A stretch of 64,000 nucleotides of DNA from Jaapia argillacea MUCL 33604 (taxonomy: Eukaryota > Basidiomycota > Agaricomycetes > Jaapiales > Jaapiaceae). The number at the start of each line of letters is the position of its first letter. Within the stretch, counting starts at the first letter, position 1. The DNA is taken from NCBI GenBank assembly GCA_000697665.1, contig KL197725.1, positions 97,255 through 161,254 of the forward strand. The letters run 5' to 3'. Positions 33,089-64,000 of the stretch are shown in pieces. Both the position numbers and the translations under genes were made by a program. The notes under the pieces are model-generated. The model was not told the origin of the DNA and did no database searches. It worked only from the letters and a program-made list of their open reading frames with translations.

Positions 33089-33831
33089 TCAGTCAGACTC
33101 CTGGTGAGATGAGGGAGAAAGACATACCTGAACATTGTCAACTTCCTCACTGCTGCGACTTCTCCCGATTCTTTGGGTGCTGTCTGTGGACCTCAGTTTC
33201 CCTTTCCGAGCACTCACTGAAGTCCTCTTCAGGTATAACTTAATAAAATCCTGAGTTGCCCACGAATCTTGGTAATTTTGCAGCACCTGAAACTTCGAAT
33301 TCTGCTCTACCTGGGAGACCGTGAGCGAGATGTTCAAAATGAAAGTGGAACGTGGACAAACTTTGTGACAAACAAGGGCCACTTTCGACGCCTCTTGAGA
33401 TTTGTAGCTCAGATGTGTATCGAGATGGGCGTCGGCCAGAAGGTGGATATGTGTCTGATGGAGCCATTCAGATGCATCTGAATTTCAGAAGGAAGTCCAC
33501 ATACCTGAACACTTTCATAGAACGTGTGGGACCATTTCAAAACAGTCTCCAGTGTGTAGCCACCTTTCCTGCCTGGACGACCGACCAAACCTGGAGGCTT
33601 GGGAATGAGAGCAGAGGAGGGCGACTCCTCCCGTCCAAGTGTGGGCGATGTAGAGGGCTCCTTAGTTGGCACTGGTGGAATGGATGATTCAGACTTGGAT
33701 TGTGGTGCGGGTTCAGGTTCAAGTTCGGGTTCGAAAGTTGTTCAAAATGTGATAGTAGATCGGAGAATGACGTGCTCAGGGCTAAAGCGGGCACGACTAG
33801 TAATGGGCAGAAAATAACGTTGGACAGACAT
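33089..33831 (-). pseudogene. Transposon-associated 'IPKPPG' protein, one in-frame TGA
   Basis: It starts at 33831 with MSVQRYFLPITSRARF. A proline/glutamate-rich linker (EPELEPEPAPQ) follows, then SALIPKPPGLVGRPGRKGGY and TLETVLKWSHTFYESVQ at the end of exon 1 (near 33508). The next exons give VCHKVC...STF and FQVLQNYQDSWATQDFIKLYLKRTS, then SARKGKLR. The order IPKPPG-GRPG-GGY, then a tryptophan-rich YxxSWATQDFIKLxLK block, is a pattern I know from repeats in mushroom genomes; the function is unknown. A TGA at 33742-33744 interrupts the first exon in frame. The C-terminus is uncertain, and the coordinate given is the stop of the last readable exon. It diverges from the related gene at 34488 across the class A repeat. 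Confidence 0.65.
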
Positions 33832-33849
33832 TGTACGTGCTGAACAAAC

Positions 33850-34370
33850 TCTTGCTCAGACAGAGTTTATAAGGGGGAGTGCGAGGTGAAGTACTGCCAT
33901 GGAAGAAGGTAGTAAGAGCTGTCAGGACATGAGATTTGATCGGTTGAGGCAGAGTCCATCTGAAAGAGCCACTCCCAGATTGACACAAGGTCCCATTCAA
34001 CGGCAGTATAACGAATACAACACATACAGAAAATGGAAGAAGGGGTGAGGTGCCAGGAAAGAAGGGTTGCCAGGAATGTAGTTGCCATGAGATCAACTGA
34101 CACAGAGTCTAAGTCGACCATTTCCAGAATGACATAAAGTCTAACTCTGATCATGAAGGTAGTAGAATGCATGCAGGAAGTGGGATAAGAGGTAAGATGC
34201 CATTGTGGAAGGTAAGTAAAGTTTGGGTTCAGGCGTGTTTCCCTTTTTGGACAAGTGCAATTCATGCAAACTGGACAACATCACCAAATGTTAGCCCAAT
34301 CCTTGGTACTCAGAGTCTCGAAGCTGAGTGGACTTTGTATCTGCATTTAGACTTTGTGTCGATGGCGAGT
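33850..34370. repeat. Class A repeat, left arm (inverted partner at 43434-43960); divergent promoter
   Basis: This segment is inverted relative to 43434-43960 over about 500 bp. Examples are ggacaagtgcaattcatgca (near 34250) against tgcatgaattgcacttgtcc (near 43550), atttagactttgtgtcgatg (near 34346) against catcgacacaaagtctaaat (near 43461), and gttgccatgagatcaactga against its inverse near 43690-43720. The motif TAGACTTTGTGTC occurs here once in plus orientation (34347-34360) and twice, slightly altered, in minus orientation (34099-34112, 34131-34144). It occupies nearly all of the 656 bp between divergent starts at 33831 and 34488. The frame on the minus strand starting MNCTCPKRE is a shadow shared with the right arm. 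Confidence 0.75.
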
Positions 34371-34487
34371 AACAATGTTTTTTTCTTCTTTTTGGGCAAA
34401 GTTTGTTTTCTCCCTCCCAACATATTTATCTCGGACTGGGTATGCATTCGTGAGTAGCCAGTTTTCACTGCTCCTTGTCTTTTGGGA

Positions 34488-35260
34488 ATGAACCTTGACT
34501 CTACTAGAGGTGGAAATCCCACAGGCCGCGTTCATATGCGACCTGTATCGCTGACCCTATGCTCCACTTTCCTACCAGAGAGAGTCCCATCTTTCCTTCC
34601 CCATACTGCTGCCCCTCCTCAGCTCAGATCTCCCCTGACGGCACCAACCGATTTGGAATCTGGGTGCATCCCACCCACCTCCAGTTTGCAAGTCTCTGAG
34701 AACTTGAGCGTGAGCACAAGTGAAGTGGTGATCAGGTCAGTGTCATCCGAAGATGACATCTCTAGTGACTCTGAAGGCAATGTAGCAGTACGCAATCTAT
34801 CAACTGTGTTCTCTCCACTAACCGACTTTCATATAGGAACAGAAATACACGGAAAGCCCAGTGCTACGGCTACTGACCCTGGCCACCCTTTCTAATGGTG
34901 CTCGGATACCAAAACCCCCTGGCGAGGTGGGGAGGTCGAGTCCTCGAGGATATTCTCTACGCAAGGAGCTTGGATGGGACAAATCCTTGTACTCTGCAGT
35001 TCAGGTCAGAAACATCTGCTGCTTTTTCCAAACTTCATATGTTAACTCTCCTACCAGTGCTTCTTGAGGGACCAAGCAAGACTACATCTCATTATCAGTT
35101 GCACATTGCATATGCAGCCAAAAGGTGATCTATTGAAGGTATTTGATTCAGTAAGTCTCTTGTCACAAACTCTCGAGCATTATGGCTGGTTGGCTTATGT
35201 GAATAGTAGGGAGTTAAGAAATTTCTGTTCCTGGTGTTGTATCAGAACCATTGGGTGATT
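34488..35260 (+). CDS. Transposon-associated 'IPKPPG' protein, second copy
   Basis: The first long exon starts at ATG 34488 (MNLDSTRGGNPTGRVHMRP) and runs into a serine/acidic region (SSEDDISSDSEGN). A block at about 34890-35010, in a different frame, reads ARIPKPPGEVGRSSPRGYSL and RKELGWDKSLYSAVQ, then a GT splice site. This is clearly related to the block in the divergent gene at 33.5-33.8 kb (IPKPPGLVGRPGRKGGY...FYESVQ). Either an unrecognised intron or a frameshift near 34850 separates the two parts. Exons after 35010 are short and unresolved, and I do not see the YxxSWAT block of the other copy. The end is approximate. It converges on the gene at 35430-36940. Confidence 0.5.
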
Positions 35261-35429
35261 AAGGACTTTCTTCAAATGTTCCTTGCAAACGCTTGTCGGC
35301 ATGGAAGGAACTAGGCTACGAGTCAGGGGTACACGAGTGACTGGGTATTTCCACTTGTATCTTCCGTGCGGCGCCGCGTAAGGATTAGAATAGTTAGGTA
35401 TATGAAGACAATTTTTAGCTTCTCAGGGC

Positions 35430-36940
35430 TCAAGCTCAAGTCTGGCATCGCAGTGGGTATGAGGAATGAACATATGAGTTGCATTCAAACGACAAGAAGT
35501 GCATGTAAAGAATGAGATACATATAGGCATAATGACAACATTGATGGACAGAGTTCCTGCCCCATTCAAGACTGTGGTGTGCGAATCTAAAAATACAAAC
35601 TTGCGGAGGACATTGCCTGCATCCACCTTGACGCTCTGGTTTCCATCGCAACCAACCGCACATCCAGGGTCCTCAAAGCATCTTGCGTGCTAGTGATAAG
35701 CGATTGCATCACTTCACTCTGTACTCTCAGATTATCAATTCCATCCAAGAGTATACCAAAGGCAGGATCTGGCGCAGAAACTCTGTGGTGGGCAGAGTTG
35801 TGCGATCTGGAAGGAGCCGTGTTGGTTGGTAGGGGCGTGCAATGAGAGGGGGTGGGAAATGTGAAAGGCAACTGCAAGATTGTATTGCAAGCCTGAACAG
35901 CCAGGTGAGATAAGGAAAGATTGCTGACTATCCATGTACAGTAACTCACCGACAGGTTGGTCAATGGATTACTGGTCATATTCACCAGTTGGTTAAGGGG
36001 CCCCCTTGAACGAATGTGAGTCCCTCACATTAGGCGGGGCTCCTGGGAGCAAGGTATAAGTTATTGGACCAAAAAACTTACAGTTCTCGTCCCAAATGTT
36101 GACTATCCTCGGAGCCGTCAATGCACGGAAAGAAGCGGTGCCTGTACGGATGGTATCACGGGTCTGCAGAAATGGGAAGGAATGAGAAGATATGAAGGAG
36201 AAAATCAATGACTAACCCTGGGCAACCTTGACCTAACCAAGGAGAAATAGGGTTAGCAGGTAAAAGGGGTGGATTTGAATCTAGCACTTCAACTCATGGG
36301 AGCAGGACGAAGGTGCCGTCCAGCAGCACAGGGTTTTGGGAGTGGAGGTCTAGCACAGTTGACAGGGGCTAATAAGGGGGTAGATGAGAGACAGGGAGGT
36401 GTCAGAGAAAATATCCTACTCAGTAAATAATGGGGAGTTGTCGCAGTGGTTCCAGCTGCTGGCTGGGACTCAGAGGTCTGAACCCCGTTCTGTTGCCGAT
36501 TGATCTGTGTTATCTGCATGTTCATGAGCGTAAATTCTGAGATTTGAATGCATGAACCTCTTCATCCCTCGGCATGGCGTGAACGTCGGAAACGACACTT
36601 CCACACTCTGCTGGGGGGTAGTGATTGATCCCCATGTCACAGGTGTTCTGCTTGCAGTCTGGGAATGATAATTCGACATAACCGTGATCATTGAGGTACT
36701 GTGTGAGGTACGTTTTAGTCAGGTACCAAAGTCAACCCACAGCTAAACTTATGATGTCGTCGTGGTCAGAGGTGGCAGGTTGAATAGACATTGGTATCGA
36801 TGCCATTGGAGCTTCAAGGAAGAGATGGTGCCTCGAGAGGTCGTGGTATAATCTTGAGATGAGAGAAGGGAATGGCTGGGGTCAGTTGCTGGATGGCGAT
36901 CACGATGGCCTGTGACTGTTAAAAAACAAACGAATTCCAT
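35430..36940 (-). CDS. Unresolved multi-exon gene with a coiled-coil-like segment
   Basis: The probable start is ATG 36940 (MEFVCFL). This places it 1,209 bp from the divergent start at 38149, the same spacing as at the other class B repeats. Supportable coding segments are few. One is a proline/threonine-rich stretch near 36300-36690. The other, at about 35590-35800, reads DPAFGILLDGIDNLRVQSEV and then heptad-like LITSTQDALRTLDVRLVAME, which could form a coiled coil. I cannot chain the exons and recognise no domain. By position it corresponds to the coiled-coil-like gene beside class B copy 3. Confidence 0.35.
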
Positions 36941-37019
36941 GGGTTTGGGTTGGCTCGTGGGAGTTTACAATTTTACGCACCAAAGAGTAGCTGAGCGAGG
37001 CAAAAGCAACAATAGCTCA

Positions 37020-38010
37020 GAAGGAGATGTATGGCAGAGATAATTGAGATGATCACACCCAGCATCAGTGACAGGACTGCTTGATCATCGACTAATGGTG
37101 GCTGATGGAAGCATCAGGGATGAAACAATGGGACAATGAGTACAACCAATGTACAGATGCTCACCTTGAGAAAAGACGGAAGAAGGGTAGCGACGGGGTA
37201 CAATTGGAGGTCCCGAGGTAGGGATAGTGAGAGGAGCACCAAGATCTCTGGCTTGGGGTATGGAAGGGTGTGATCGATCGAGGGGTGGAGTGGCGGCTGT
37301 GTGCCATAAATCAGCAATGGCACAAAAGAAAAATGTGCAAGCGTACCTCCACAGGTCGTCCAGCTATTGTTGAACAACACAAATGGACTAGCAAGAAGGG
37401 ACAAAACAGACTCGAAATCAGTCAGCCTGAAATGGGGACTTGATCATTGAGAATGGAGAGTGGTGCAGAAGGTCGAATCAGGCATAGCACGGGAGGACAA
37501 TGGGGTCATACCTCGATCCAGAATTGTACCTTGACGCAGAATTTTGGGTGCAACAAGGGTTCGTGAATTGAACATCCGCGACACAAAGTCTAGCTCTCCA
37601 GGCGCAAAGTGAGTTCAGGAGTGAGAGGTCGAGCTTGAAGTACCAAAGTACCAGCTTGGTACCAGCACAAGTTGGGATCATGAGTTGGCGCTGTGGTTGC
37701 CAAGCATCTAACCATTCTTGGACAATTGCAAGACTTGCAATGATGGCGTCAAATCCGATCTTACCCTTTTTGGAAGGCACTCAGGTTCCAATCTGCTGGC
37801 ACTGCTGGCACTCGCAACCGTACCTCGCACTCCACTATCTTTTGTCTCCCTTCAAACGGCATTTAGACTTTGTGTCAATGCCTTCTCCATCTAGACTATG
37901 AGTCGACGTTGAGATCCATGCCTCATCCTCCATCTCTGCACCTCATCTCCAATTGCCTCCATTCACGCCCTTTTGTCCCTATTGTCCACCAGCTGGTGCC
38001 CTCTCAATTT
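37020..38010 (-). repeat. Class B repeat, copy 1; divergent promoter
   Basis: The repeat contains, on the minus strand, an open frame with NNSWTTCGGTLAHFSFVP then LQLYPVATLLPSFLKVSICT. That frame reappears at 47.9-48.1, 54.0-54.3 and 63.4-63.7 kb. Shared landmarks are ggagatgtatggcagagata (left edge), the small palindrome gtaccaaagtaccagcttgg, cgaccacaaagt-type motifs and cacgcccttttgtccctatt (right edge). The motif TAGACTTTGTGTC occurs in inverted orientation at 37580-37593 and 37863-37876. The open frames are probably by-products, because the repeat lies between start codons at 36940 and 38149. Confidence 0.85.
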
Positions 38011-38148
38011 CATGGAGTAAGCCCCATGTTTTCCCCTTAGGAATCCCCTTTATGATAAACAACCCCATCCAGTTGAACTCCTCGTCCTCTCCTCCTTGTG
38101 GAATTCTCTTTCAGGGCCAATTTCTGCTGTTGTTCGCAATCACCTAAC

Positions 38149-38848
38149 ATGGCCTCAAGTGCTCCGAGCCCCACTCGATTCATCCTTGAACCTGGTGTGT
38201 CTGCATCCCAGCTTCGGTGCTTGACAGTCTTAGCACTTGAGATGCTCTGCGATCAGTATGGGATCAGCCCTGTTGCAACTAGAGCTGACCATTGTCTTGT
38301 AAAGGCTGATATGATTGCAGCACTTCTGGTGATGTGTCTTCTCTCCATTCTCTGGGCCTGCCTTGCTTATATCTGGGTGATGTTTCAGCACTGCAGTACC
38401 TCGTCTCTAAGCTCAAGGGGAGCCAACATCCCACCTGACAGGTATGGCATTTTCTCTGATCCAGACCACCACTTACAAGGGCACTCAGTGTAATGGAGGG
38501 TACCAACACTCTCTCCCATCAAACAATGCAAATCCGAATCTATAAGCATTGTGGGGACTGGTGGCCCCATGCCACCCTCAATATGGATCTACTGAATGGC
38601 GGACGCATTGATGTCAAGGCATTAGTCAGCCTTGTGAAGTCGGAAATGATGGCAGATAGCACGTCGTTATCAAAGTATCAGGTGAGGTTCCTTTTCCGTC
38701 CTCATATCCCTTTGTTTATGAACTCCTCCCCCAGGTATTCGATCCTTGCCATAATCGTCTGTATTACATCGCTGATGAAGGTTTCCTGGAACCAGACAAC
38801 ATAGAATATCTTGCTGCAGAGGGCTACATCAAGGTTGCTGGAATTTGA
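38149..38848 (+). CDS. Small protein with a SAP-like N-terminal motif
   Basis: A compact multi-exon gene beside class B copy 1. Exon 1 starts at ATG 38149, MASSAPSPTRFILEPG, followed by LRCLTVLALEMLCDQYGI and KADMIAALL. A middle exon (about 38520-38682) reads IRIYKHCGDWWPHATLNMDL then GGRIDVKALVSLVKSEM. After an intron ending CCCCAG near 38730 the last exon reads VFDPCHNRLYYIADEGF, then EYLAAEGYIKVAGI and TGA at 38846-38848. The first block resembles the helix-loop-helix of SAP-type DNA-binding domains (LTVxxLxxLCxxxGI...KxDxIxxLL) and closely resembles a segment inside the neighbouring transposase (LTVPILHQLCVKKGI). It appears intact. A role in DNA binding for the element is plausible, not shown. 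Confidence 0.6.
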
Positions 38849-39546: not shown

Positions 39547-42500
39547 TCAGAGAAGGCTAACCCAATCAAAGGGACACATAATCAGGATCCCATCTTCCCA
39601 AGGGCGGCTAAAAGCGTGACATACGCGCTGATCAACAGTTACTATATCCACTTGATCACTGGTAGCTGTTGACCATATCCCTGCGCGGAAGTCAGGATAT
39701 TGGGTGAAAGGGTCATGAATGGGCAGGTCGGCGGGTAGGTAACAATGCACTGCAAAACAAACTTCTGGGACAGAGTGGGAGCCCTGGTATTGGCGAAGTA
39801 TTGTGAACATCTGGTGTATAAACCCTGGGACAAGGGGTGCATCTCTTATGGGTGTGAAGAAAATGAGACTATCGTGGCGGACTGAATTGTAGCTCGACAA
39901 GCGTAAACCAGCCTTAGTATGTCGCACCAGTGGCACAGCTTTGGTTACAGGACGACCACTGGCGAAAAGTGCTTCCCTAACATCTTTTTCAAGTGTGATT
40001 TCCAATGTTGCAAGGTACTGCGGTGGATTGGCGATTGTCGAGTCACTGTCCATGGAAAATGCAAGGATGTTGCTCATCAAGGTTCCCTGAAAATCACCGC
40101 TGAAGCCTTGCTCCAGGATTGGGAGGCAAAGTTGGAGTGTCTCAGGACAACAACCTGTTTGGAACATTCTGTGAAGGTTTGCAGCAGCACAGAAGGTGGT
40201 CATCATCATTCTTTTGTATTCAACTGTGATGGTGATTCATCAGGATAGAGGCAAGAAATAACTTGAAATTGTTCCATACCGAGTTTCGGATTGGTGTTAA
40301 CTTGCTGTAACACACCGACGATATGCTCAAAAGGGAAAACCCACCAACCATGGACTGGACCCAAGTTCTTCAGGAGTTTGCCAAGATGCAGGGCCAAATG
40401 ATGGTTCAGGCGAAGATCGAACTCAGGGAAAAGCGTCTTCAGACCGTCAATGTACGCCTTCATGAAGATAGTATATTTGTCAGCACAAGCCGCGGATGTG
40501 CGACGGAAGGTGGCATAGTTGACTGCCACCATCCCATTCATGGTGTTATTGGACCATGATAAACATTGTTCCCGATCGACGTCATCGACAGCATCAGCTA
40601 GGTCCCATAGGTCAGCAATAAGAGCCACGGGAAGGTTGAATTCCGCTGCCGAACGCCACTGATCAGCCTTTAATTTGCCATGGCTCGAGGATCCAAAGTT
40701 GACAGGAAGTGCAGTGTGGGACGAAGGATGGCTGGCGATCAAGATCGCAAGTTGAATGGCCTTAATCCCCTCTCGGGTAACTGGTTTCAGGTGCAGAAGG
40801 CCACCGGCTTCTGGAGACGGCTCAGGGGGAGGCCTATCGACAGGCTTGCATATATCTTCCAACTCCAACAATGCCAAGACTTCATCGCACTCATATTCCT
40901 TGACTCTACTCTCATTGGGAGTCGCCAATGATTGCTGCATACAGAGTGTTATCCATAGAGTGGATGGAAGGTAGTGATATGAACTTACCAATAGTAAGGA
41001 AATAAGATCATCTTTTTTCAACTTAGTAACCACCAGCAAAGATTTAATCCCCTTTTTGACACACAACTGGTGTAGAATAGGGACAGTCAGACACTTCATG
41101 TGACTCAGGGAGGGGTTGGTGGCAAGGAGTTTTCAAGCCTTTTCCATCACGGACTCTGATACCAGAGCAGGCATCGGCTTCTCGTCCTGCTCATGATCAT
41201 CATTAAGGTCGATGCCAAGGACAACACAGAAGTGGTGCTTCAAGATGCCTAGTAATAGATTTTGCATAGCGTCCACCACCACCATTTTCATGGGATCCCA
41301 ATAGGGAAGGCGAAGGAGTTCAGACCAACATATACCAAACTGGGTGAAAATTGCCTCCCTTGCCTTCGCACTTGGAGCATCGAGCCATTTCTGTGTGCAA
41401 GTGAGGTAATCTTCATGCGTCCATCGGGGCCAGGTGGAGGGGTCCGTATTGTCAATATCCTTCTTCTCCAGCTTGCACAATGAGGAGAATTTTTTCATCG
41501 CATACGAGGCACTCCCTCCAACCTTGCGAGATGCAGGTAAGTCGCAAACAAGGATAAGGATAGCACAGCGAACTCTTCGACCAAGAGGATAGCCGCAAGT
41601 TCTCGACAGATATAAGCCGTCATTCCTGGCCATGAGAAAGTCGTTGACGAGTGGTTTGAGGTAATGATTAATTTGCTTGAGAGATGGTTCTCTGGGCCCT
41701 GGGATAACACCTGTAAGATATATGTTCTCCAACTTATAATGAATACTGGGAGGCAAATTGAGGCAGGTCAAGCTCGCATGTCCTGTCGAAACCTTCTTTC
41801 CCCCTTGCTTATTCATCTGGGGGTTGAACCAGTCCATGGAAAGCGTGAACCTTAGCCTGAGGTCGCCTCCCCCCACAGTGAAAGGTTTCCCATCGGGCCC
41901 AGTGAACTCACGAGCTGTAGCACCATCGAGTATGTCCATCATTTCTTCTACTTCAACCCCTGAGCTCCAGCACTTCTGTTCCAGCGTGATTATCTCCTTG
42001 ATGTCCCTGCGACACAGGAGCCCAGCAGTAAAACCAGATAGAGTTTGGTAAACATAAGGGACCTTGGGGACCCATCCTGTCCGACTGTCAATGACAGCAG
42101 TCTTGAGGAGTCAGGCATTGCAGCAAGGGCGTTTTGTGAAGGGACGGAATTGGCATCGGTGAGGGTATCTTAACTTCTTCGTCTTTGGATCGACAGTTGG
42201 CGGATTCAGTGCTTTGCACGTCTGGCAAACCGCATACGTCCTTGTTTTGGGGTTGAGGGAATACTGTTTCCGAATGGTCTGAATATCGCGAGGAAAAGCT
42301 GAGAGTAGTTGTTGATCTTTGTCGTTGATGGGGTGATCTCGACCCAAAGATAGCATGAGCAAAAGTTGAATCATCTTGAGAACAAAACTGCAGGTCAACT
42401 GCGAAACACCCCCGAGCAGGTTGATGGCGATGGCTATGAAGGTTCTGATGATGAGAAGGGGGTCGGCTCTCTTCAGAGGATGGTTAAAGTATTTCCCTGG

Positions 42501-43229: not shown

Positions 43230-43433
43230 CGAGGGCCTTGGGAGGACTATAGTTAATGAGGCTTGATTTTATAAGGCCCAGAGGGTACGGAAAATGAAAC
43301 AAGTAGCCAAAGATATCTTGGTGCCAGGACGATGGATCTGACGCTTCGTGGCCAGAAAACAAGAGTTTCCAAGGGGGAGGGTGTCAGACAGCAACCACTG
43401 ACAAGGGGTGCCTCAGTGGTTACGTTCCTCGTT

Positions 43434-43960
43434 GACACAAAGTTTAGGTGGGAGAAGATGCATCGACACAAAGTCTAAATGCAGATACAAAGTCCCCTTG
43501 TCTTCGAGCAGTCAACGTTAACATCGTCGTCTGAATATGGAGTTTGCATGAATTGCACTTGTCCAAAAAGGGAAATGGACCCGTACCTGGCACTGAGGTG
43601 CACATCGCCCTTGTGCATATTCTGTGTGTGTTCTGCTGCCTTCAGAGTTAGACTTCATGTCACTCTCACCTTGGTCAACTTAGACTCTGTGTCAGTTGAT
43701 CTCATAGCAACCGCACCACACAGACAAGTCCTGGCAACTCTTTGTCCTTGGCACCTTGCTCCTTCTTCCCCTTTCTGTATATGTTTTGTGCACAAAACTG
43801 CCATTGAACAGGAACCTTGTATCACTCTGGAAGTGGCTCATTTGAACAGGCTCTACATCACCCGATCAAACCTCATATCCCAACGACACTTCAGCTTCCC
43901 CCCTTCTTCTACAACTGGACTTCACCTCTTGTTCCCCATATGTGACACGCTGTCTTGGCG
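43434..43960. repeat. Class A repeat, right arm (inverted partner at 33850-34370)
   Basis: About 500 bp is inverted relative to the left arm. It holds two near-exact copies of GACACAAAGTCTA in plus reading (43434-43447, 43465-43478) and two in the opposite orientation (43648-43661, 43680-43693). Its inner edge is about 205 bp from the transposase start at 43229. The plus-strand frame at 43479-43967 (contains MNCTCPKRE) is the counterpart of the minus-strand frame in the left arm. It is more likely a by-product of repeat conservation than a gene, although conservation of the peptide start is noted. Confidence 0.75.
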
Positions 43961-44300: not shown

Positions 44301-47300
44301 ATCTCCAAGGTGTCGATGCATTCTTGATGTTGATATGAGGCTTGGCAAATGTTGAGAATAAGCTGGGAACCCAACGCACATATGATCGTGGCCATATAGC
44401 TCCCAAATGCTTCGATGTAGACAGGCTAGATGTCCAATGTCAGAGTTAATCTGTGCATGGGCTGAGAATACATATACAGGGAGGGCGCATAGGACAATAG
44501 TGACCAGGGTGTATGCAGAGAAAGCTCTGGAAAGCAACTCTGCGTAAGCCGGAAACGTCAATATGCCTGCGAGACTACATTTGCAAGTCACAATCATGAC
44601 CAGCAAAATGAACCGTGGTCAATCCACCTAGTAGTCATGATCATACTAGCAACGTGACGAGTATGGATGATCAACACCCAAAACTATGTATATATCTTGC
44701 CAGGCTCGCCTGACGCAACGGCGACCACAAGATTTGTTATATGTACGATTTTTAGATCCCCATCAAGGAGTTGTGATCCACCTTCAGGAAGGTTGGGTCG
44801 AAGATCAGAGATTGGACAGGCCTGCAATTGCACATACCAGAGGCCATCAGGAAGATAGACAACCAACCTACAGGACGGTCGAATATTGCAAAGCAGAAGC
44901 ATGTGGTGACTTCGTCACACCAACAGTTCGACCACAGGGAGAAGTGAACAAGACGAACTTGAGTACCTACACAGGGATAAGTGTAACCTCCAGAACACCA
45001 AAGTCAAGATTTCATAAGATCCAAACGACATCCAAGCAGGTATCTTTTCAAGCCATCAGGCGTCCTTGTCGACGGGCTGCCTACATCTTCCCGATGCTAT
45101 TACAAATGTGATCGTAGGTACATACCACCATGGTTCAATTCCATCCCTGCAGTCTCCACCATATGCCCAAGCCCCTGGATTCTGAACTATCGATGCTGAT
45201 TGACAAATTGGTTCCCTAGCCAGCGGTCAATGATAAGTACTGGGAGGCAAGAAAACCATACATTATTGGGACCGATAGGCATGTGGGATTCCTCATTACG
45301 ATGTGAATCATTTTCATTGGGAGATGGTTGGGTGGTGGTTTGAAGAACCTGGTGAGGTTGAGACTGTGGCGTATATGTTGAGGTGGTGGTGGAGGCCGCT
45401 CACCGATCGTTCAAGCTGCATGATATCTCCATGTAGTTCGGCGAGAAACTGACATTTCATTCAGTGGTCAATGCGTACAATCGGGCCAGTACAGTGATGC
45501 TAACCTTATGGTGGGAAAAATGTAACTGCAACCAAGATCATTCGTGTATTCACTGCAAAAGAACATCAGACCTACCTCCGACCTGAGAAGAGAAGTCTCG
45601 TGTACAATGTGACTAGCCAACTGATGATGAAACTGGAGTCAGCTTCGAGGTGACAGAGACAATGATGCAACAAAACACTAACCTCTTCTCTTGCATTGGA
45701 CAACTCCGACTTCATGACTGCGGAAATCTGTCAGATGAAACATAAGAGTGATACCAACAGAGAGCGAGAGAAGAACCAACCTCCTGAGCGACTTCTTCAA
45801 GGTCTGATGGCTTGAGTTCCTCAGCAAAAGATGTCTTTGGAAGGATACAAATGAGATCTGGGTTTTACAATACCAAGAGGAACTAACCACATCAGGATGG
45901 AGTTGGTTGTCGCTGATGGGTGGTGTCTTTTGCAGGAGATGCCACAGACCTGAACAATGGAATCTTAGTTCAGTCTAAATGTCGGTGGGTACAGTTAGTA
46001 AATATATAATTGAAAGAGTAATGGCATGATTATAAGGGGAAAGACCTTTCACCTCGAAAGTGTTCATGGGAATGGCAGGAGATGCTGTGTGTTGGGAATG
46101 ACGACCTAGTTGTGGAGGTCTTACCTACTCAGATATAACGTCAGCAGGTGTGAAGAAGGGCAATACAATCGCTACTACTGACTGTGTGGTCGGGAAGCTG
46201 AGGCTAGGTGAATAGGATTGATATTAGGGCAAGATTGAACCGTATTTGAATACCTCTTGAGTGTGCCCACCAGGGAACCGACTGGGGACATTGATGCCTT
46301 TGGACACTAACAGAGTTGACTGATTCCACAGGTTAACAACGGTCAGGTCAGAAAAAAAAGCCTCTTACTTGACTGGTATCGAATCTAGTACGCTTGCGTG
46401 GGACTTCGTCCTGAGGCCCCATTACTCGCTTTGTCGGAATGGATGAAAGAGTGCCTGAGACATTTCCTGAGGCCTGAGCAAGACGCCCAATGATCTGTTG
46501 TAGCCTGGCCTGGAGGGGATGTGTTTTAATTCTCCCAAGAGAGTCCTGACTATTTGCACATCGATAATGCTTGTAAAAAAGAAAGATAAATATGGACCAT
46601 CACACCATTTGAGATGTGCATACATGCGTGCCACAGGAATTGTGTTCCTGGTTAGCAACTCGACTCAGATACCCATCTGAACGCGGATTTGAAGGATTGT
46701 TGAATGGAGAGCGCTGTAGAGTTCACAGCATGGAGGTTACATATAGGTGGAAAATGATGCAATGAGACATACAGTACGCTGGAGGTGCACTGAATCCTCA
46801 TTTCCTGGAATGTGCCGAGAGGGCTGCTTGGAATGAGTGTAAGTGGTTGAACAGAAGATAAAAGATTTGCACCTGGGGGATGACTGTCCTACGACATTTC
46901 ACAGATGAAGGTCCCAGACTGACTTCCACCTGCCATTTCTGAATTTTAGCGGATAGGAGAGACTGCTGAATCCAGACAGCATGGAGACCATTGGCATCAG
47001 GATAAACAGAATCAACCTCGTGGGTCGAGAAAAGGCCATTTCGGGGTGATGATACAGAAGCCCTAGGCTGTGAAGGACGTCAGCAGCGTTGACGTAGCAG
47101 AAGAGTGCAGGTGGCAGAAATATGTCGATAGTTAGATAGAACTGACCTTCTCATAAAAGCTAACTAGTTCTGTCATTTCTCTGTCGTGCAGGCCTTTACC
47201 GAAAATATCCCTGACAGTTTGAGTGGATTCGGTATGTGCATGGAGGGGAAAGACATGAACATTGTTGTAGACACCTCACTCAGAGAGAGAGTCTGTGGCG

Positions 47301-47667
47301 AAGCAGTAAGTCCAAAGGGTTTTAAACGATGAGAAAAGAAACAAACTAGTTTCGTCCTTGGGGAGGAAGCTACATCCAGACATAAGTATGGGTGGTTATG
47401 ATGGTAGATTGGTCGAATTTCACTCTGAACAGATGAATCTAGATTCAGATCAGCGTCTGATCCAGCGGGAGGAAAGTCCTATTTGGAAGGGTGAGCTAGA
47501 GAGCTTGGCAAAGGCAGAAGACAGAATATGATTACTTCAGGGGTCTGCTGCCTACAGTGTTTTCGAATGGTGCGTGGAGGATCGGATTCAGCCTGCCAAT
47601 TCTGAGGGAGTGCAGATGGATCGATACAAATCTCTTCGTTGCTGGAGTACGGAATGTATTTATCCAT
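44300..47667 (-). CDS. Unresolved multi-exon gene starting MDKYIPYSSNEEICIDPS
   Basis: The start codon at 47667 begins MDKYIPYSSNEEICIDPS, then ALPQNWQAESDPP. The same N-terminus, with two substitutions, begins the plus-strand gene at 63939 beside class B copy 4, which supports real coding potential. Further coding segments are seen at about 46860-46990 (VWIQQSLLSAKIQKWQVEVS) and 45680-45890. The gene appears to consist of many short exons separated by 50-60-nt introns, which I could not chain reliably. No domain is recognised. The 3' limit is a guess, set by the end of plausible exons and convergence with the sequence right of the class A arm. Confidence 0.4.
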
Positions 47668-47689
47668 GTTGTGCAAGGTGATGATGAAA

Positions 47690-49163
47690 AATAATTGGGG
47701 ATTTTATGGAAAGGACGAACAATAAGGAGAAGAGGACGGGAACAGCGCAGAGGGCCCACCTAACTACAGAAGACAATAAGTCAGAGGGAGATGTATGGCA
47801 GAGATAATTGAGATGGTCGCACCCAGCATCGGCGACAGGATGGATGGATCGTCGACGAATGGTGGCTGATGGAAGCATCAGGGATGAAACAATGGGACAA
47901 TGAGTACAACCAATGTACAGATGCTCACCTTGAGAAAAGACGGAAGAAGGGTAGCGACGGGGTACAATTGGAGGTCCTGAGGTAGGGATAGTGAGAGGAG
48001 CACCAAGATCTCTGGCTTGGGGTATGGAAGGGCGTGATCGATCAAGGGGTGGAGTGGCGGCTGTGTGCCATAAATCAGCGATGGCACAAAAGAAAAATGC
48101 GCAAGCATACCTCTGCAGGTCGTCCAGCTATTGTCAAACGACACGAATGGACTAGCAAGAAGGGACGAAACAGACTCGAAATCAGTTGGCCCAAAATGGG
48201 GACTTGATCATTGAGAATGGAGAGTGGTGCAGAAGGTCAAATCAGGCATAGCACGGGAGGACAATGGGGTCATACCTCGATCCAGAATTGTACCTTGACG
48301 CAGAATTTTGGGTGCAACAAGGGTTCATGAATTGAACATCTGCAACACAAAGTCTAGTGGAGTGACAAGAGCGACACAAAGTCTAGCTCTCCAGGCGCAA
48401 AGTGAGTTCGGGAGTGAGAGGTCGAGCTTGAAGTACCAAAGTACTAGCTTGGTACCAGCACAAGTTGGGATCATGAGTTGGCGCTGTGGTTGCCAAGCAT
48501 CTAACCANNNNNNNNNNNNNNNNNNNNNNNNNNNNNNNNNNNNNNNNNNNNNNNNNNNNNNNNNNNNNNNNNNNNNNNNNNNNNNNNNNNNNNNNNNNNN
48601 NNNNNNNNNNNNNNNNNNNNNNNNNNNNNNNNNNNNNNNNNNNNNNNNNNNNNNNNNNNNNNNNNNNNNNNNNNNNNNNNNNNNNNNNNNNNNNNNNNNN
48701 NNNNNNNNNNNNNNNNNNNNNNNNNNNNNNNNNNNNNNNNNNNNNNNNNNNNNNNNNNNNNNNNNNNNNNNNNNNNNNNNNNNNNNNNNNNNNNNNNNNN
48801 NNNNNNNNNNNNNNNNNNNNNNNNNNNNNNNNNGAGTTGGCGCTGTGGTTGCCAAGCATCTAACCATTCTTGGACAATTGCAAGACTTGCAATGATGGCG
48901 TCAAATCCGATCTACCCTTTTTGGAAGGCACTCAGGTTCCAATCTGCTGGCACTGCTGGCACTCGCAACCATACCTTGCGCTCCACTATCTTTTGTCTCC
49001 CTTCAAACGGCATTTAGACTTTGTGTCAATGCCTTCTCCGTCTAGACTATGAGTCGACATTGAGATCCACACCTCATCCTCCATCTCTGCACCTTGTCTG
49101 ATCGCCTCCATTCACGCCCTTTTGTCCCTATTGTCCACCAGCTGGTGCCCTCTCAATTTCATG
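47690..49163 (-). repeat. Class B repeat, copy 2, with internal assembly gap; divergent promoter
   Basis: Same orientation as copy 1 and inverted to copies 3 and 4. It shares the whole core with copy 1. With copy 4 it also shares an extension through the 5' leader into the MDKYI coding start (acaataaggagaagaggac and inverse). It has a private small duplication around the motif: two copies of acacaaagtctag at 48344-48357 and 48373-48386, with an inverted one at 49014-49027. Its right edge (gccctctcaatttcatg) lies 85 bp from the plus-strand start at 49248. The start-to-start distance is 1,581 bp, or 1,255 bp without the run of N. Confidence 0.85.
48508..48833. other. Assembly gap (326 N)
   Basis: The roughly 33 bases before the gap, beginning gagttggcgctgtggttgcc and ending ctaacca, are repeated directly after it. 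Class B copy 1 contains this sequence only once, uninterrupted, at about 37683-37716. The gap is therefore probably an artefact between two contigs that overlap. Confidence 0.9.
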
Positions 49164-49247: not shown

Positions 49248-50320
49248 ATGATTTCTCCTACATTTATCCCTACTCCTCACACCAGCCACATTCGGTCGCT
49301 TTCCCTGTGTCCTCTAGGAAAAGCCTTGGCCAGTGGTGCATCCAAAAGATCTGTTACCGTGTGGAGTTTTGAGCAATCGAAGCGCTTGTTCTGTCACTTC
49401 TTCAACCATGACATCACCACTGTCTCCCTTTGCCTTTCCCCTGCGTCACGTCTTCAATATCATCTCTTTTGTGTCCTCGAAGATGGCACTGTTGCATTGC
49501 TAGAATTTATGAGATTCTCCAATGTGGGCTTTTCGCATCTCCCTTCCGGCCTCACTCACTTTCTCTTGTAGTTCACCCTATCTTGTGTATACCTGAAATC
49601 GTCTGGTGCCATTATTCACGTGATTTCTTGCACCCATGACCTCGTCGTTTGTGGTGGTGAACTTGGTGTGTTTTATATATGGCGCTTCAATGACGGTAAG
49701 TTTCCTTATCATCCACATATGTCAATAATTCAATTTGTGTCTAGATGATATCTGGGAACTGCAAGACCTTGTTGACTTCTCGTCCCAATGTTTTCTATTT
49801 GGCAGAATTATAGGTCTCCATATTTCTGAATACACCAGCGACTCCCACATCACAGCTGTGTATACCACAGGTAAAGTCATGTTGGTACAACTTCTCCTGA
49901 GCGATTCTGCCCATTGACTCTTTTGTGAAGTTTTTTCAAAGAGGACTCTATCTGACTGATGACAGAGCTGGAGACAAGCTGTACCCTGTGAGTCCCTTCA
50001 ACATCTATTCCATGTACCCGTTGTATTGATTTGTTTTCCCAGGTTAAGCTGTGCTTTTATGGGAGATGGCGAGCGTCTGGCAATTCCGCTGCCCTCCTCC
50101 ACAGGTGTTAGCAGGGGAGAAGCCGACCATGGCGCTCTCGCGATTGCCTGACGATCTTGACTATGTTACTTGTCTAGGAGAAGAGAAATTCCTGGCGAGA
50201 AATGCGTGGGGCAATGTTTTTGCTTGGGATGGACAGTATGGAAATCTACTCTTTTACAGAGCCCATGAGGATTCTTGTAAGACGTCCCTCCCTCCCTGTT
50301 GGTCGAGTGCTCAATAACAG
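49248..50320 (+). CDS. WD40-like repeat protein beside class B copy 2 (exons partly resolved)
   Basis: The start MISPTFIPTPHTSHIRSL is followed by SLCPLGKALASGASKRSVTV and WSFEQSK, which has the form of one WD40 blade. A later exon near 49630-49695 reads LVVCGGELGVFYIWRFNDD, another blade end. Further exons give LHISEYTSDSHITAVYTTGK and, near 50180-50270, FLARNAWGNVFAWDGQYGNL. Short introns separate them. It resembles in style the WD40-like gene on the other strand at 61.1-62.7 kb beside class B copy 4, but the two are well diverged. Between 50320 and about 52270 more short open segments on this strand could be additional exons. I could not confirm them, so the end is provisional. Confidence 0.5.
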
Positions 50321-52324: not shown

Positions 52325-53237
52325 CTAATTGATGTCTTCGAAGTCGGTCATCGGCTGTGTGAGACCGGCTGGCGTTCCTCCTATGCTCACATCGAAGGAG
52401 CCAGCCCGCGACCTCTTCCTCTTGCCCCACAGATGCTCAGCAGCCTCTTGTAACTCCTGAATAAACCCGATAAGTCCCGGCGAAGATAATGGTAGAAGTT
52501 CTTGAGCGAAAACCACAGAGCTTGCCTACCAACATCTGACAGCTTGTGGTTTCGGAGATGAACAAGCCCGTCCCTTGAAAGGAGTGTGATAGCTGCCCTG
52601 TTCCATTTACTGGAGACATTGGCATGCCAGTCCAGAAGTATGTTATCAACTGAGGGGCTGGGCCCTCCAGCAGTGTAAGTCGCAATGACATCGGGGTGAA
52701 CTGTTTGGGGGAGATCAGCACAGAGATTGACAGCAATATGCTTGCTTGAGAGATAGGCCCTGACTGCGTGCTGATGGTAGAAAATGTCAGTAGGGATTGG
52801 AGGGAACAGAGTTCGTCGTACCTTGAAAGGATACGTATCCTCCTCACTGCTTTCACCCTCATCACGAGAGTTGTCGTCATCACGAGAGTTCCCTTCATTT
52901 GAGATGTCAAAGATGGTGGAGCCTACTTGCTTATCTGGCCTCTCTTCTGCAAGTTGGGCTGAGACAGAATACTTGTCCATGAGCATGAGGCCTCTGGAAA
53001 ATGGAGCCTGTCATGACGTTAGAGTTAGCAATAGTGTCTGGAGCAGAATCGGATACGAACAGGATTGCCAACCGATGTATGGGGTGAAGAAACGTCTCGT
53101 GCCAAAAAAGTGCAATTGAAATGCAATTGAGACTCCAGATTCCATGTCTACTCCCGAAAATTAATTCCAAGAAAATGGTATTCGAGAGGATTAAAGAACA
53201 TCACCTCATCCAGGATGTGCTTGACACTTGTTGCCAT
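52325..53237 (-). CDS. Conserved transposon-linked protein with NILLDWHAN block (copy near class B copy 3)
   Basis: The probable first exon begins at ATG 53237 (MATSVKHILDE, then a GT site). The main exon begins near 53000 after a CCAG acceptor and reads MDKYSVSAQLAEE, an acidic stretch (DDDNSRDEGESSEEDTYPFK), then VRAYLSSKHIAVNLC, AGGPSPSVDNILLDWHANVS and WNRAAITLLSRDGLVHLRNH. This block is clearly homologous to the gene at 58.5-58.8 kb (LLAYLKKKNIG...GGNGPSINNLLLDWHQYALS...LLAREGLAKLRKG). A basic C-terminal segment (HLWGKRKRSRAG) ending PMTDFEDIN with TAG at 52325 lies in another frame, so an intron or frameshift exists near 52440-52500. Function unknown. It is divergent from the gene at 54488. 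Confidence 0.55.
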
Positions 53238-53375
53238 TTGAGAATTAGAGGGTAAACCAGCAGCATTTGTCAGATGATGCAGTGATGGAAGAGATCAACT
53301 GGATGTCGAATATTGAGCACAAGGGGTTCCTAGAGGTGAGTGGCTTGCTTGATAGAATTCAGAGTCTATAAGAAG

Positions 53376-54365
53376 AGCTGGTGGACAATAGGGACAAAAG
53401 GGCGTGAATGGAGGCGATTAGATGAGGTGCAGAGATGGAGGATGAGGCATGGATCTCAACGTCGACTCATAGTCTAGACGGAGAAGGCATTGACACAAAG
53501 TCTAAATGCCGTTTGAAGGGAGACAAAAGATAGTGGAGCACAAGGTACGGTTGCGAGTGCCAGCAGTGCCAGCAGATTGGAACCTGAGTGCCTTCCAAAA
53601 AGGGTAAGATCGGATTTGATGCCATCATTACAAGTCTTGCAATTGTCCAAGAATGGTTAGATGCTCGGCAACCACAGTGCCAACTCATGATCCCAACTTG
53701 TGCTGGTACCAAGCTGGTACTTTGGTACTTCAAGCTCGACCTCTCACTCCTGAACTCACTTTGCACCTGGAGAGCTAGACTTTGTGTCACAGATGTTCAA
53801 TTCACGAACCCTTGTTGTGCCCAAAATTCTGCGTCAAGGTACAATTCTGGATCGAGGTACGACCCCATTGTCCTCCCGTGCTACACCTGATTTGACCTTC
53901 TGCACCACTCTCCATTCTCAATGATCAAGTCCCCATTTCGGGCTGACCGATTTCAAGTCTGTTTCGTCCCTTCTTGCTAGTCCATTCGTTTCGTTCGACA
54001 ATAGCTGGACGACCTGCAGAGGTACACTTGTGCATTTTTCTTTTGTGCCATCACTGATTTATGGCACACAGCCGCCACTCCACCCCTCGATCGATCACAC
54101 CCTTCCATACCACAAGCCAGAGATCTTGGTGCTCTTCTCACTATCCCTACCTCGGGACCTCCAATTGTACCCCATTGCTACCCTTCTTCCATCTTTTCTC
54201 AAGGTGAGCATCTGTACATTGGTTGTACTCATTGTCCCATTGTTTCATCCCTGACGCTTCCATCAGCCACCATTCGTCGACGATCGATCTGTCCTGTTGT
54301 TGTTGCTGGGTGCGATCATCCCAATTATCTCTGCCGTACATCTCCCCCTGACCTTATTGTCTCAC
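53376..54365 (+). repeat. Class B repeat, copy 3; divergent promoter
   Basis: Opposite orientation to copies 1 and 2. It begins with gagctggtggacaataggga, continues with the core (gtaccaagctggtactttgg, NNSWTT... frame from about 54000) and fades after ctctgccgtacatctccccc near 54350. The motif lies at 53492-53505 and, inverted, at 53775-53788. Its left edge is 139 bp from the minus-strand start at 53237, and the start-to-start distance to 54488 is 1,251 bp. The frame at 53588-53890 is interrupted in other copies and is not considered a gene. Confidence 0.85.
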
Positions 54366-54487
54366 TGTAGCCAGGTTTCCCCCTTTATGATTTTCTTGTA
54401 GATTCACCAAGGTGATGGGATGGTTGAGGCGGGAGAAGGAATACTTTTTTGTATAAAGACCATGTCTTTGTAGCATTAGTAGTCCCA

Positions 54488-61122: not shown

Positions 61123-62743
61123 TCAAACTCTACATACGTCTGGCTCAGCTTTAATTTTCATACAATAAGTGGCTGGACGCACCTCAGAATGGCGAAACCA
61201 AACTTTGATAGTTATTGGCCCATCACCTGATGCCCCACTGACGATGATGGAGTGATGAAACCCACTATGAACCTGGGTGGAGAGGTCAACGAGCCATACA
61301 AGTGAGTCAACCATGGAAAGAACCAACTCCAATAGCTTGCACTGGGTTCCCTTGAAGGATAGAGTCAGAAGCCCATCATAGAACCACGTCAATTGGCAAT
61401 TACTTCGAGAATGAGTGAGTGAATGGACAAGAGTACCATCATCATAGTTGAAGAGCGAGACGGTTCCTTGATCACTACCACAAACAACGAGGGACTCTGG
61501 AGTGGCAAAAGCCATGGGAAGAATCATCAGGACCTGCATACTCTGATTGAAGAATCGAATGGGTTGAAGGAGGGGCATTGAGTATAGGTCAGTCCCTGTA
61601 TCAAGGTTGGAGACAAGGAGCAATTGTCCATCAGCGGCAAGGCCAGTAGCACCGCTGTGGAGGACAGTTAGAGGTCACATATGGTGGAAAACCTGCTCTG
61701 ACGTACATCTGGGTATGAATGCGTTGGTTCCAATTGACAGACCATGGATCGACATTATAGCATATTCTAGGTTGGGGGTCACAAGCTGTAAAAAGATGGT
61801 AGGAGACAAGGAGTGATTGTCCATCAGCGGCAAGGCCAGTAGCACCGCTGTGGAGGACAGTTAGAGGTCACATATGGCGGAAAACCTGCTCTGACGTACA
61901 TCTGGGTATGAACGCATCGGTTCCAATTGACAGACCATGGATTGGCGTTATAGCATATTCTAGGTTGGGGGTCACGAGCTGTAAAAAGATGGTAGGGAGA
62001 AGCGTACATTTCATGAAATTCCAGATAGGTGACGATGACAGCCTTTCCTTGGTTGACGAAATGGACAGTCCAAGAGATATATTCTGAACGTGGAGTTGTC
62101 ACAATTTCGCTCAATGTCCCTGTATGGATGAAGGGTAAAAAGACGAAGGAGCAGGCAGAAAAAAATCTCACAGTCAGGTTTGACAGCCCACAAGGTCAAC
62201 CGCCCCCCCCCCACGGTGGCCAAACGATGATGGAAGGGATCAAAATTGAGACTTTCGATACACCCTTGATGCATGGCACCAGGACCTAAGGATTCAAAGA
62301 CATTCTACAGGCGATACAGAAGCAAGTCAGGACAACATGAATCAGAAGAAAATTTGGCACACCTTCTTCTTGCTTTGGCCCCATATAGACACCAGGCTGT
62401 CAGCGCTGGAGAAGACAAATGCCTTACTGTCAGCTGCAGAGTCGATCCAAGCCCCTGCAGTGACTTGGCCATGAATAGACTCGCTATGCTTTTGGATGAG
62501 AGTCCCTGATGAAATGTCCCAGATGATGATATAACCGTCGTTGCCTAAGAGAGTGAAAGTCAACATCTCAATGGGAGGCCGCACCCCAGACGACATACCT
62601 CCACTCAACAGAAGGCGCCCCTCGGCATCAATTGCCAGCACATTGATGCTTTTGATATGTCTGGTAAGAGTGTGTTTCAGTTGGAACGATCCTATGAATG
62701 GAATTAGCTCTGGAGATGAGGATGCTGACGGATCTTCTACCAT
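61123..62743 (-). CDS. WD40-like repeat protein beside class B copy 4
   Basis: The start at 62743 is MVEDPSASSSPELIPFIGSF. Successive exons give WD40-like blades: HIKSINVLAIDAEGRLLLSG, NDGYIIIWDISSGTLIQK, AFVFSSADSLVSIWGQ, CIESLNFDPFHHRLATVGGG then RLTLWAVKPD, AVIVTYLEFHEM, CYNANPWSVNWNRCVHTQM, GATGLAADGQLLLVSNLDTG, ESLVVCGSDQGTVSLFNYDD then GTLVHSLTHS, and a last blade with HSIIVSGASGDGPITIKVW. The stop is at 61123. Blade order and content follow a WD40 family I know as expanded in mushrooms. At least six blades are visible, separated by 50-60-nt introns. An exon pair is tandemly duplicated at 61611-61996, and the consequence for splicing is unclear. No nonsense codon was found in the segments I checked. 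Confidence 0.7.
61611..61996. repeat. 193-bp tandem duplication inside the WD40-like gene
   Basis: The sequence beginning agacaaggagcaattgtcc at 61611 is repeated from 61804 with about 5% difference. The unit covers the exon encoding CYNANPWSVNWN, the following intron and the start of the GATGLAADGQ exon. Its junction fuses LLVS to YHLFTA in frame, so the duplicated exon could be spliced or read through. Confidence 0.9.
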
Positions 62744-62861
62744 GAACTTCGACTGCAGGAGGAACTGTGGAAGTAGTTTTGGAAGGTAAGAGTAGATTGC
62801 GTGAAAAAATTATAAGTCTTAAGATGAAGGGGGACAATAAGTTGATACAGACTGAAACAGA

Positions 62862-63835
62862 AAGTGAGGGACAAAAGGGCGTGAATGGAGGCAATTGGAG
62901 ACGAGGTGCAGAGATGGAGGATGAGGCGTGGATCTCAACGTTGACTCATAGTCTAGACGGAGAAGGCATTGACACAAAGTCTAAATGCTGTTTGAAGGGA
63001 GACAAAAGATAGTGAGGTACGGTTGCGAGTGCCAGCAGTGCCAGCAGATTGGAACCTGAGTGCCTTCCAAAAAGGGTAAGATTGGATTTGACGCCATCAT
63101 TGCAAGTCTTGCAATTGTCCAAGAATGGTTAGATGCTCAGCAACCACAGCGCCAACTCATGATCCCAACTTGTGCTGGTACCAAGCTGGTACTTTGGTAC
63201 TTCAAGCTCGACCTCTCACTCCTGAACTCACTTTGTGCCTGGAGAGCTAGACTTTGTGTTGCGGATGTTCAATTCACAAACCCTTGTTGCACCCAAAATT
63301 CTGCGTCAAGGTACAATTCTGGATTGAGGTACAACCCCATTGTCCTCCTGTGCTACGCCTGATTCGACCTTCTGCACCACTCTCCATCCTTAATGATCAA
63401 GTCGCCATTTCGGGCTGACTGATTTCGAGTCTGTTTTGTCCCTTCTTGCTAGTCCATTTGTGTCGTTCAACAATAGCTGGACGACCTGTGGAGGTACGCT
63501 TGCACATTTTTCTTTTGTGCCATCGCTGATTTATGGCACACAGCCACCACTCCACCCCTCGATCGATCACACCCTTCCATACCCCAAGCCAGAGATCTTG
63601 GTGCTCCTCTCACTATCCCTACCTCAGGACCTCCAATTGTACCCCATCGCTACCCTTCTTCCATCTTTCCTCAAGGTGAGCATCTGTACATTGGTTGTAC
63701 TCATTGTCCCATTGTTTCATCCCTGACACTTCCATCAGCCACCATTCGTCGACGATCAATCAGTCCTGTCGTCGATGCTGGGTGCAACTGTCTCAATTAT
63801 CTCTGCCGTACATCTCCCTCTGACTTATTGTCTTC
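62862..63835 (+). repeat. Class B repeat, copy 4; divergent promoter
   Basis: It begins gtgagggacaaaagggcgtg and shares the core and the longer right-hand extension with copy 2 in inverted orientation. The motif is at 62971-62984 and, with one change, inverted at 63247-63260. Its left edge is 119 bp from the minus-strand WD40 start (62743). The start-to-start distance to 63939 is 1,196 bp. The frames at 63060-63362 and 63436-63726 correspond to frames in other copies. Confidence 0.85.
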
Positions 63836-63938
63836 TGTAGTTAGGTGGGCACTCTGTGCTGTTCCTGTCCTCTTCTCCTTATTGTTCATCCTTTCCATAA
63901 AATCCCGTCGATTACTTCTCATCCTCACCTCACGCAAC

Positions 63939-64000
63939 ATGGATAAATACATTCTGTACTCCAGCAATGAAGAGATTTGTATCGATCCATCCACACTCCC
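63939..64000 (+). CDS. 5' end of a gene starting MDKYILYSSNEEICIDPS (cut by window end)
   Basis: Only the first 20 codons are in the window. They match the N-terminus of the minus-strand gene at 47667 with two substitutions. The 5' leader is also conserved between the two. It is therefore a paralogue carried with class B copy 4. Confidence 0.55.
   Translation, partial: MDKYILYSSNEEICIDPSTL

Follow-up and report, generated by a model that had tools for sequence, protein, structure and literature searches.

A polar, bulged hairpin with covarying arms as a candidate control element of a gene array in Jaapia argillacea

What kind of signal is a 13-base word that recurs, in opposing orientations, between the divergent genes of a single fungal locus? 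The question is raised by a stretch of 64 000 nucleotides from the basidiomycete Jaapia argillacea MUCL 33604 (GenBank assembly GCA_000697665.1, contig KL197725.1, forward-strand positions 97 255 to 161 254), hereafter called the window, for which an original prediction made from the letters alone had described such a word in six intergenic segments. Our analysis suggests an unrecognised control element that would work by folding: judged from the sites themselves, the 13-mer is the fixed top of a bulged hairpin, whose flanking six bases vary from site to site and yet pair with each other. Positions are given as window coordinates, and those above 64 000 as window-equivalent coordinates past the window end; C17 denotes the contig carrying the window.

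Distribution and fold of the 13-mer

Allowing up to two mismatches, the 13-mer matches 22 times in the window, compared with 1.75 +/- 1.23 in 100 dinucleotide shuffles (largest 6), and 21 of these matches, in the opposing orientations originally described, lie inside the six segments. The remark that the motif was not seen elsewhere in the window holds apart from a single minus-strand match at 32553, which has no matching arms and is probably due to chance; together with another armless C17 match, at 70764, it was treated as such. In the whole assembly (43.7 Mb, stretches reading N uncounted), exact copies number 15, as opposed to three for the reversed-pattern control, and all of them lie within around 50 kb at C17:131602-181315, i.e. 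nine in the window and six beyond it, from window position 34348 to about 20 kb past the window end. An equal frequency in random sequence, which the original prediction had named as the outcome that would speak against it, was therefore found neither in the window nor in the genome. At one mismatch, the genome count rises to 65, with 21 sites inside the array; since the control reaches 62, most of the 44 sites outside the array are background, with C60:79641 among them being a real relative. We uphold the proposal that the conserved, and probably the functional, part is the 13-mer, its exact form being confined to this locus. Its letters also occur in one unrelated paper.

In a well-formed site, a lower stem of about six pairs, unconstrained in its letters, is followed on the 5' side by a bulge of two bases (TA or TT); above these come the three pairs GAC/GTC and a loop of five bases, in most cases TTTGT or TTTGC. 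Sites stand singly or in groups of two or three ahead of genes, with a spacing of 19-32 bases on C17, 26-41 bases (one gap of 81) on a second contig, C60, and 61 bases on a third, C9. The arms were compared in 45 sites (31 on C17, including two three-mismatch sites and the two probable chance matches, 12 on C60 and two on C9) with 41 distinct arm pairs. Over arm positions k=1-6, 158 of 246 pairs are Watson-Crick, compared with 75.6 +/- 7.7 when the 3' arms are shuffled (0 of 5000 shuffles), and collapsing similar arms to 23 leaves 86 of 138 against 40.4 +/- 5.5 (0 of 5000). The excess is found in both larger loci separately, i.e. 94 of 162 against 53.1 +/- 6.1 in C17 and 57 of 72 against 24.5 +/- 4.7 in C60, the latter giving 38 of 48 against 16.1 +/- 4.1 (1 of 5000) when collapsed to eight arms. 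Sliding the register by one to three bases lowers the Watson-Crick fraction from 0.66 to 0.12-0.23.

A dedicated covariation counter, applied to a 40-row alignment that leaves out the two chance matches and exact duplicates, returned a score of 0.562 against 0.183 +/- 0.021 in shuffles (0 of 500), with 92 double-changed cells against 40.5 +/- 6.2 (0 of 500) and 83.3% paired cells against 62.0% in shuffled and 23-44% in slid controls. Save for two of the five counter measures, taken up below, the hairpin thus covaries beyond both kinds of control. A covariance model gave 34 matches at E <= 2.1e-4 in 340 kb, exclusively in the C17 array, C60 and C9, while the best match in 20 control stretches (one all N, one around half N and one with 1152 N) reached E 4.3; because the model was trained on the same sites, of which default filters recovered 34 of the 43 non-chance ones, its information lies in the absence of other matches. 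A scan for further arrays with conserved loop and variable stem found only C60, being insensitive enough to miss the C17 array too. No Rfam family reaches its gathering threshold in the window; in the C60 stretches, the only matches were four to unrelated families, all of them below threshold (E 0.033-0.68).

The pairing of the arms bears directly on the ordinary double-stranded activator or TnpA-type site that had first been proposed. Such a site keeps the letters of its half-sites, whereas here the flanks vary and keep their mutual complementarity. A plain double-stranded site fails for arms that are variable but matched, while an element read as a folded strand, in leader RNA or extruded DNA, fits them. 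An activator site in a locally duplicated gene cluster, i.e. a bidirectional promoter element, would agree with the enrichment of the motif, its position ahead of genes and the TATA-like boxes described below. However, duplex binding requires no pairing of the kind seen in two loci separately, and the strictly polar orientation also stands against it, so we regard this explanation as very improbable.

Complementary arms may also be the product of mutation, with selection acting on the 13-mer only, since template-switch correction of quasi-palindromes is a known mutational process. In its favour, neighbouring motifs in the class B spacers (see below) appear recombined when copies B2 and B6 are compared with B1, B3, B4 and B5. 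This would leave the strict polarity unexplained, however, and every C60 site keeps at least five of six pairs while the intervening 13-mer stays asymmetric; we give this reading hardly any credence.

A second locus and the direction of the hairpins

The gene behind the site at 81175, beyond the window, has two relatives outside C17, located at C60:80174 (34% identity) and on C83 (35%). Directly upstream of the former lie six plus-strand copies of TTGACTTTG(C/T)GTC, and six minus-strand copies follow 0.4-1.5 kb to the left of this group, the variant TTGACTTTG(C/T)(G/A)TC forming 12 hairpins in total. The minimum-energy fold of the upstream stretch includes all six hairpins (z -2.41). The hairpins of C60 follow the design seen on C17, differ from it in their loop variant, and stand ahead of a gene related to one in the array. 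Of the 10 exact copies of TTGACTTTGCGTC in the genome, C60 has seven and C11 one, the remaining two lying at C9:850.8 kb.

The hairpins are also strictly oriented. In the seven divergent segments, including one beyond the window, all 24 sites face outwards from the centre, a count that omits the two chance matches and five other C17 sites outside divergent segments. Each hairpin reads in the direction of the gene that it faces, and single sites likewise read with the frames they face. As the sites 73804/73831 and 81175, all beyond the window, lie ahead of plus-strand frames and have no divergent partner motif, divergence is not essential. Of the bidirectional promoter element, what remains is the presence of opposing motifs ahead of divergent genes; each hairpin faces one gene only, and non-divergent cases exist.

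As to the molecule that would fold, the pyrimidine excess of the coding strand rises around 100 bases before the hairpin (from 0.05 to 0.24 as the mean of 17 clusters, B copies making up many of these) and continues past it, while in control genes (21-25) it peaks at 0.15 just before the start codon. Moreover, in class B a spliced frame can begin five bases after the motif and is open across three junctions in B1 and B3. Both features fit a transcribed leader.

Several observations weigh against a functional, transcribed hairpin. Regarding covariation, pairs changed on both sides number 6 against 5.7 in shuffles and do not separate (328 of 500), and further pair types, 26 against 23.0, separate weakly (20 of 500). 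The fit is uneven, with at least five of six arm pairs (G-T counted) in 27 of 45 sites, i.e. in 12 of 12 on C60 and two of two on C9 and in as few as 13 of 31 on C17, and the sites lie in duplicated segments and are hence incompletely independent. The C83 relative has no motif at one mismatch, which leaves C60 as the only one of the two relatives known to have it, and short stretches around the relatives of a Tnp2-type frame and a frame at 58.8 kb gave no hairpin with the covariance model. The class B spliced frame has a stop in B4 and is read through in B1 and B3 only. TATA-like boxes lie between the hairpin and the presumed start, placed by eye, in eight of 17 gene-facing clusters (a raw count, in which two CATAAAA and one TATAAT are included), and those hairpins would lie upstream of the transcript. 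At k=1-6, G-T and A-C pairs stand at 24:10 (shuffled 30.6:20.2), at k=2-6 they stand at 12:8 (shuffled 21.0:18.5), and these ratios do not decide which strand folds. Finally, the CpG observed/expected ratio is around 0.5 over most of the array, compared with 0.73-0.99 in 17 of 20 controls (two at 0.39, one all N), and suggests silencing.

The position of the TATA-like boxes brings in a hairpin promoter made of DNA, in which negative supercoiling between divergent promoters would extrude the hairpin as a cruciform and a protein would read its single-stranded loop upstream of TATA. We know of no eukaryotic nuclear precedent for such a promoter. It would be in keeping with the divergent layout of seven segments and with the boxes downstream of the hairpins, and DNA parameters fold four of four tested sites into the hairpin or into one with an extra pair (-4.6 to -7.2 kcal/mol), although in two of these folds 8 and 21 of 200 shuffles equalled the score. 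The early promoters of the phage N4 virion RNA polymerase, as described in the part of the source consulted (PMC4496689), are likewise polar hairpins ahead of genes, with a conserved loop and stems that mix conserved and variable bases; they have a three-base loop and a 7-bp stem and belong to a phage, in contrast to the five-base loop, bulge, roughly nine pairs, eukaryotic setting and TATA-like boxes found here. On the other side, the stems are short and bulged and non-divergent sites exist. Altogether, the cruciform promoter appears unlikely to us, if worth keeping in mind, with the RNA reading being somewhat ahead of it.

Spacers, mobile DNA and neighbouring genes

The segments (Table 1) fall into two classes. 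Class B is a spacer of around 1 kb with six copies, at 37.0, 47.8, 53.4 and 62.9 kb in the window and at 78.1 and 83.8 kb beyond it, the sixth (83.8-84.5 kb) being truncated on one side; class A has two copies. The length of B2, the fourth segment, is inflated by an assembly gap of 326 bases (48508-48833), flanked on both sides by the same 33 bases. No further copies of either class were found, and class B has no match outside C17. That the two classes share little beyond the motif is mostly so, with masked alignment scores against class B of 38 for A1 (reached in 2 of 200 shuffles) and 34 for A2 (10 of 200) indicating slightly more than the 13-mer. On one side, B1, B3, B4 and B5 have a single motif where B2 and B6 retain two hairpins, and in our reading of the alignment the arms of this single motif look like the outer halves of those two hairpins.

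The conserved unit is the divergent spacer, whose outer ends are ragged and differ between class B copies, and class B as a transposon with fixed ends was set aside on this ground. Alternatively, a DNA transposon family, Tnp2/CACTA-like or of another kind, may have moved these genes, with the hairpins as structures at its ends or in its subterminal repeats that the transposase recognises. In favour of this, a Tnp2-type frame lies within the array, relatives of three array frames are scattered through the genome, several with internal stops, the CpG decay is typical of mobile DNA and, between segments, inward-pointing motif clusters bound gene pairs. Yet a spacer with ragged ends is not a gene-bearing element, the class B spacers have no match outside C17, and when 36.5-39.5 kb was compared with 43.2-45.2 kb for exact inverted words of 11 bases, only the motif and one other word turned up. 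To our knowledge, the subterminal motifs of plant CACTA elements are not hairpins with free stems. The comparison with CACTA that had been drawn has a point of contact in the Tnp2 frame; the search for exact words in these limited ranges identified no matching termini. CACTA/EnSpm and Plavaka elements share with the array a Tnp2-type transposase and repeated motifs near genes (PMC12730594), while the motif here covaries as a hairpin, and neither 'subterminal' nor 'SAP' is found in the main text of that source. Transposon ends are a serious rival, albeit one that we consider improbable.

Five class B copies differ at 82 columns, 78 of them by transitions, and 63 of these 78 lie at CpG; counted over all pairs, transitions number 388 and transversions 16. 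A similar skew is seen in two other recent duplications, i.e. 34765-36913 vs 85936-88084 (47:3) and the first MDKYI exon of B2/B4 (13:2), while older paralogues have ordinary ratios (MDKYI genes 425:244, WD40 47:29, class A 75:44). Because their differences are mainly CpG transitions, the class B copies are recent and decaying; the spacers would so have undergone recent copying or homogenisation in which their older neighbours took no part, and the CpG transitions may reflect that recent repeats become methylated and deaminated. For three basidiomycetes in a study of fungal transposable elements, a CpG signature was the only one at C-to-T sites in the part consulted (PMC4352252).

Further repeats surround the spacers. 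The 2.1-kb copy at 34765-36913 and 85936-88084 is inverted and 97.6% identical. At about 84578-85883, the left partner of the sixth B copy is interrupted by a piece of a long terminal repeat retroelement, which has two 173-base direct repeats (95%), a gag-like frame in which a CCHC knuckle was read by eye, and GGCCA on both sides. On either side of the array, at 27-32 kb and at 98-104 kb, weakly similar frames occur in mirror order, as might be left by an old, large inverted duplication with its centre around 65.5 kb, in the N stretch 64001-70640; a 68-base inverted match at 32.0/98.1 kb was dropped, as it looks like simple repeats. A separate repeat set without the motif, mostly 65-80% identical, occupies 2154-23194 and the region upstream.

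Exon models and gene starts in the array are provisional: a gene finder trained elsewhere in the genome (median predicted intron 56 bases, a length that, like the Tnp2 frame, suits a basidiomycete) called only five genes in the 114-kb locus, and a locus-tuned version gave partial models. In domain searches with single frames and frames whose stops were read as X, only the Tnp2 match and one WD40 match, in the B5 partner, were above cut-off; DUF4218, other WD40-type models, Gcn1_N, DUF1932 and Plavaka (0.074 on the Tnp2-type frame) stayed below it. The label SAP-like, given earlier to the right partner of B1, has no Pfam support. The frame behind 81175 gave one meaningless match (E 0.83) to solved structures. 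Single-frame queries with the WD40-like, IPKPPG, MDKYI and right-hand B1 genes matched only this locus at E <= 0.001, while the Tnp2 frame (10 partial matches, 32-44% identity), the frame at 58.8-59.5 kb and the gene behind 81175 have relatives elsewhere. For the WD40 pair formed by the B2 partner and its B5 paralogue, dN/dS is around 0.20, with dS at 1.56, near saturation; three MDKYI exons gave 0.65, 1.46 and 0.27, so not all genes are clearly constrained.

On the minus strand of 39550-42110, a DUF4218-like frame follows the Tnp2 frame in the same frame past a stop codon, this copy probably being broken or spliced. The WD40-like gene adjoining B4 contains a 193-base tandem duplication (61605-61990, 94%). 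The two genes flanking B3 (52390-53010 and 58194-58769) share a stretch around LLDWH...WN (by eye) and may be distant paralogues.

Table 1. Spacer segments, neighbouring genes and motif sites in the window. Arm scores are the paired positions of the six flanking each 13-mer.
Feature	Position	Strand	Remark
Class A segment A1, divergent spacer	33883..34364		4 motif copies; 69% identical to A2
Class B segment B1	37009..38014	+	93-95% identical to other long B copies
Class A segment A2	43461..43928	-	69% identical to A1
Class B segment B2, split by assembly gap	47773..49163	+	sequence similarity to B copies
Class B segment B3	53376..54360	-	93-95% identical to other long B copies
Class B segment B4	62867..63831	-	93-95% identical to other long B copies
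Right partner of B1	38149..38490	+	no Pfam match; start by eye
Tnp2-type transposase frame, left of A2	41136..42110	-	PF02992, E 8.8e-12
Gene beginning MDKYI, left partner of B2	47173..47667	-	provisional model; family matches confined to this locus
WD40-like gene, right partner of B2	49248..49568	+	domain and genome searches
WD40-like gene, partner of B4	62342..62743	-	domain search and gene model
Hairpin	34093..34117	-	6/6, including one G-T
Hairpin	34125..34149	-	6/6, including one G-T
Degenerate copy (TGGACTTTGTATC)	34323..34347	+	2 Watson-Crick and 2 G-T of 6
Hairpin	34342..34366	+	4/6, including one G-T
Motif, poor arms	37574..37598	-	3/6, including G-T; looks like outer halves of two B2 hairpins
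Hairpin	37858..37882	+	6/6 Watson-Crick
Weak hairpin	37886..37910	+	3/6
Degenerate copy	43428..43452	-	2/6
Hairpin	43459..43483	-	6/6, including one G-T
Hairpin	43643..43667	+	5/6
Hairpin	43675..43699	+	6/6 Watson-Crick
Motif, weak arms	48338..48362	-	3/6
Hairpin	48367..48391	-	6/6, including one G-T
Hairpin	49009..49033	+	6/6 Watson-Crick
Weak hairpin	49037..49061	+	3/6
Hairpin	53458..53482	-	4/6
Hairpin	53486..53510	-	6/6 Watson-Crick
Motif, poor arms	53770..53794	+	2/6, including G-T
Weak hairpin	62937..62961	-	3/6
Hairpin	62965..62989	-	5/6
Motif, poor arms	63242..63266	+	3/6, including G-T

A proposed private hairpin element and its nearest analogues

We propose that a locally expanded gene set is, or once was, under the control of a polar hairpin element private to it, a proposal that we hold to be about evenly poised between right and wrong; regulation by the hairpins is itself inferred. 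A protein reading loop and bulge would recognise the element as a folded strand, most probably within the 5' leader of the RNA, be it nascent or mature, and the genes of one locus would thereby be switched or translated together. Since the loci have different loops, each probably has a reader protein of its own, which it may also encode. The class B spacers would have been copied over one another recently, by gene conversion or segmental duplication, and the locus may now be CpG-methylated and decaying. It is tempting to speculate, if only tentatively, that such arrays live under a locus-matched hairpin code, with loop variants TAGACTTTGTGTC in C17 and TTGACTTTGCGTC in C60 and partner proteins that diverged along with them, as self-contained regulons that duplicate and turn over like mobile elements.

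The iron-responsive element, a cis-acting mRNA hairpin with a conserved top and a free lower stem, is similar in its bulged hairpin, conserved loop, stem kept by pairing, position near gene starts and sharing by a gene set. In contrast, loop and bulge differ here, and the present element is confined to particular loci and known from DNA alone. It and the N4 promoters serve as the nearest working analogues, and we do not claim membership in either class. Covariation-supported structures in non-coding regions have also been described for fungal untranslated regions; in the part of that work consulted (PMC8216456), no basidiomycete served as a query in the screen, and the structures that it reports occur predominantly as single copies and do not form arrays. 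Our literature searches found no published description of the present element.

If the proposal holds, a short word resembling a plain binding site would turn out to be a folded element, found through covariation among copies within one genome, and two gene arrays would bear diverged versions of the same structural signal. Fungal biology would thus gain a new family of hairpin control elements, testable with simple stem-swap reporters.

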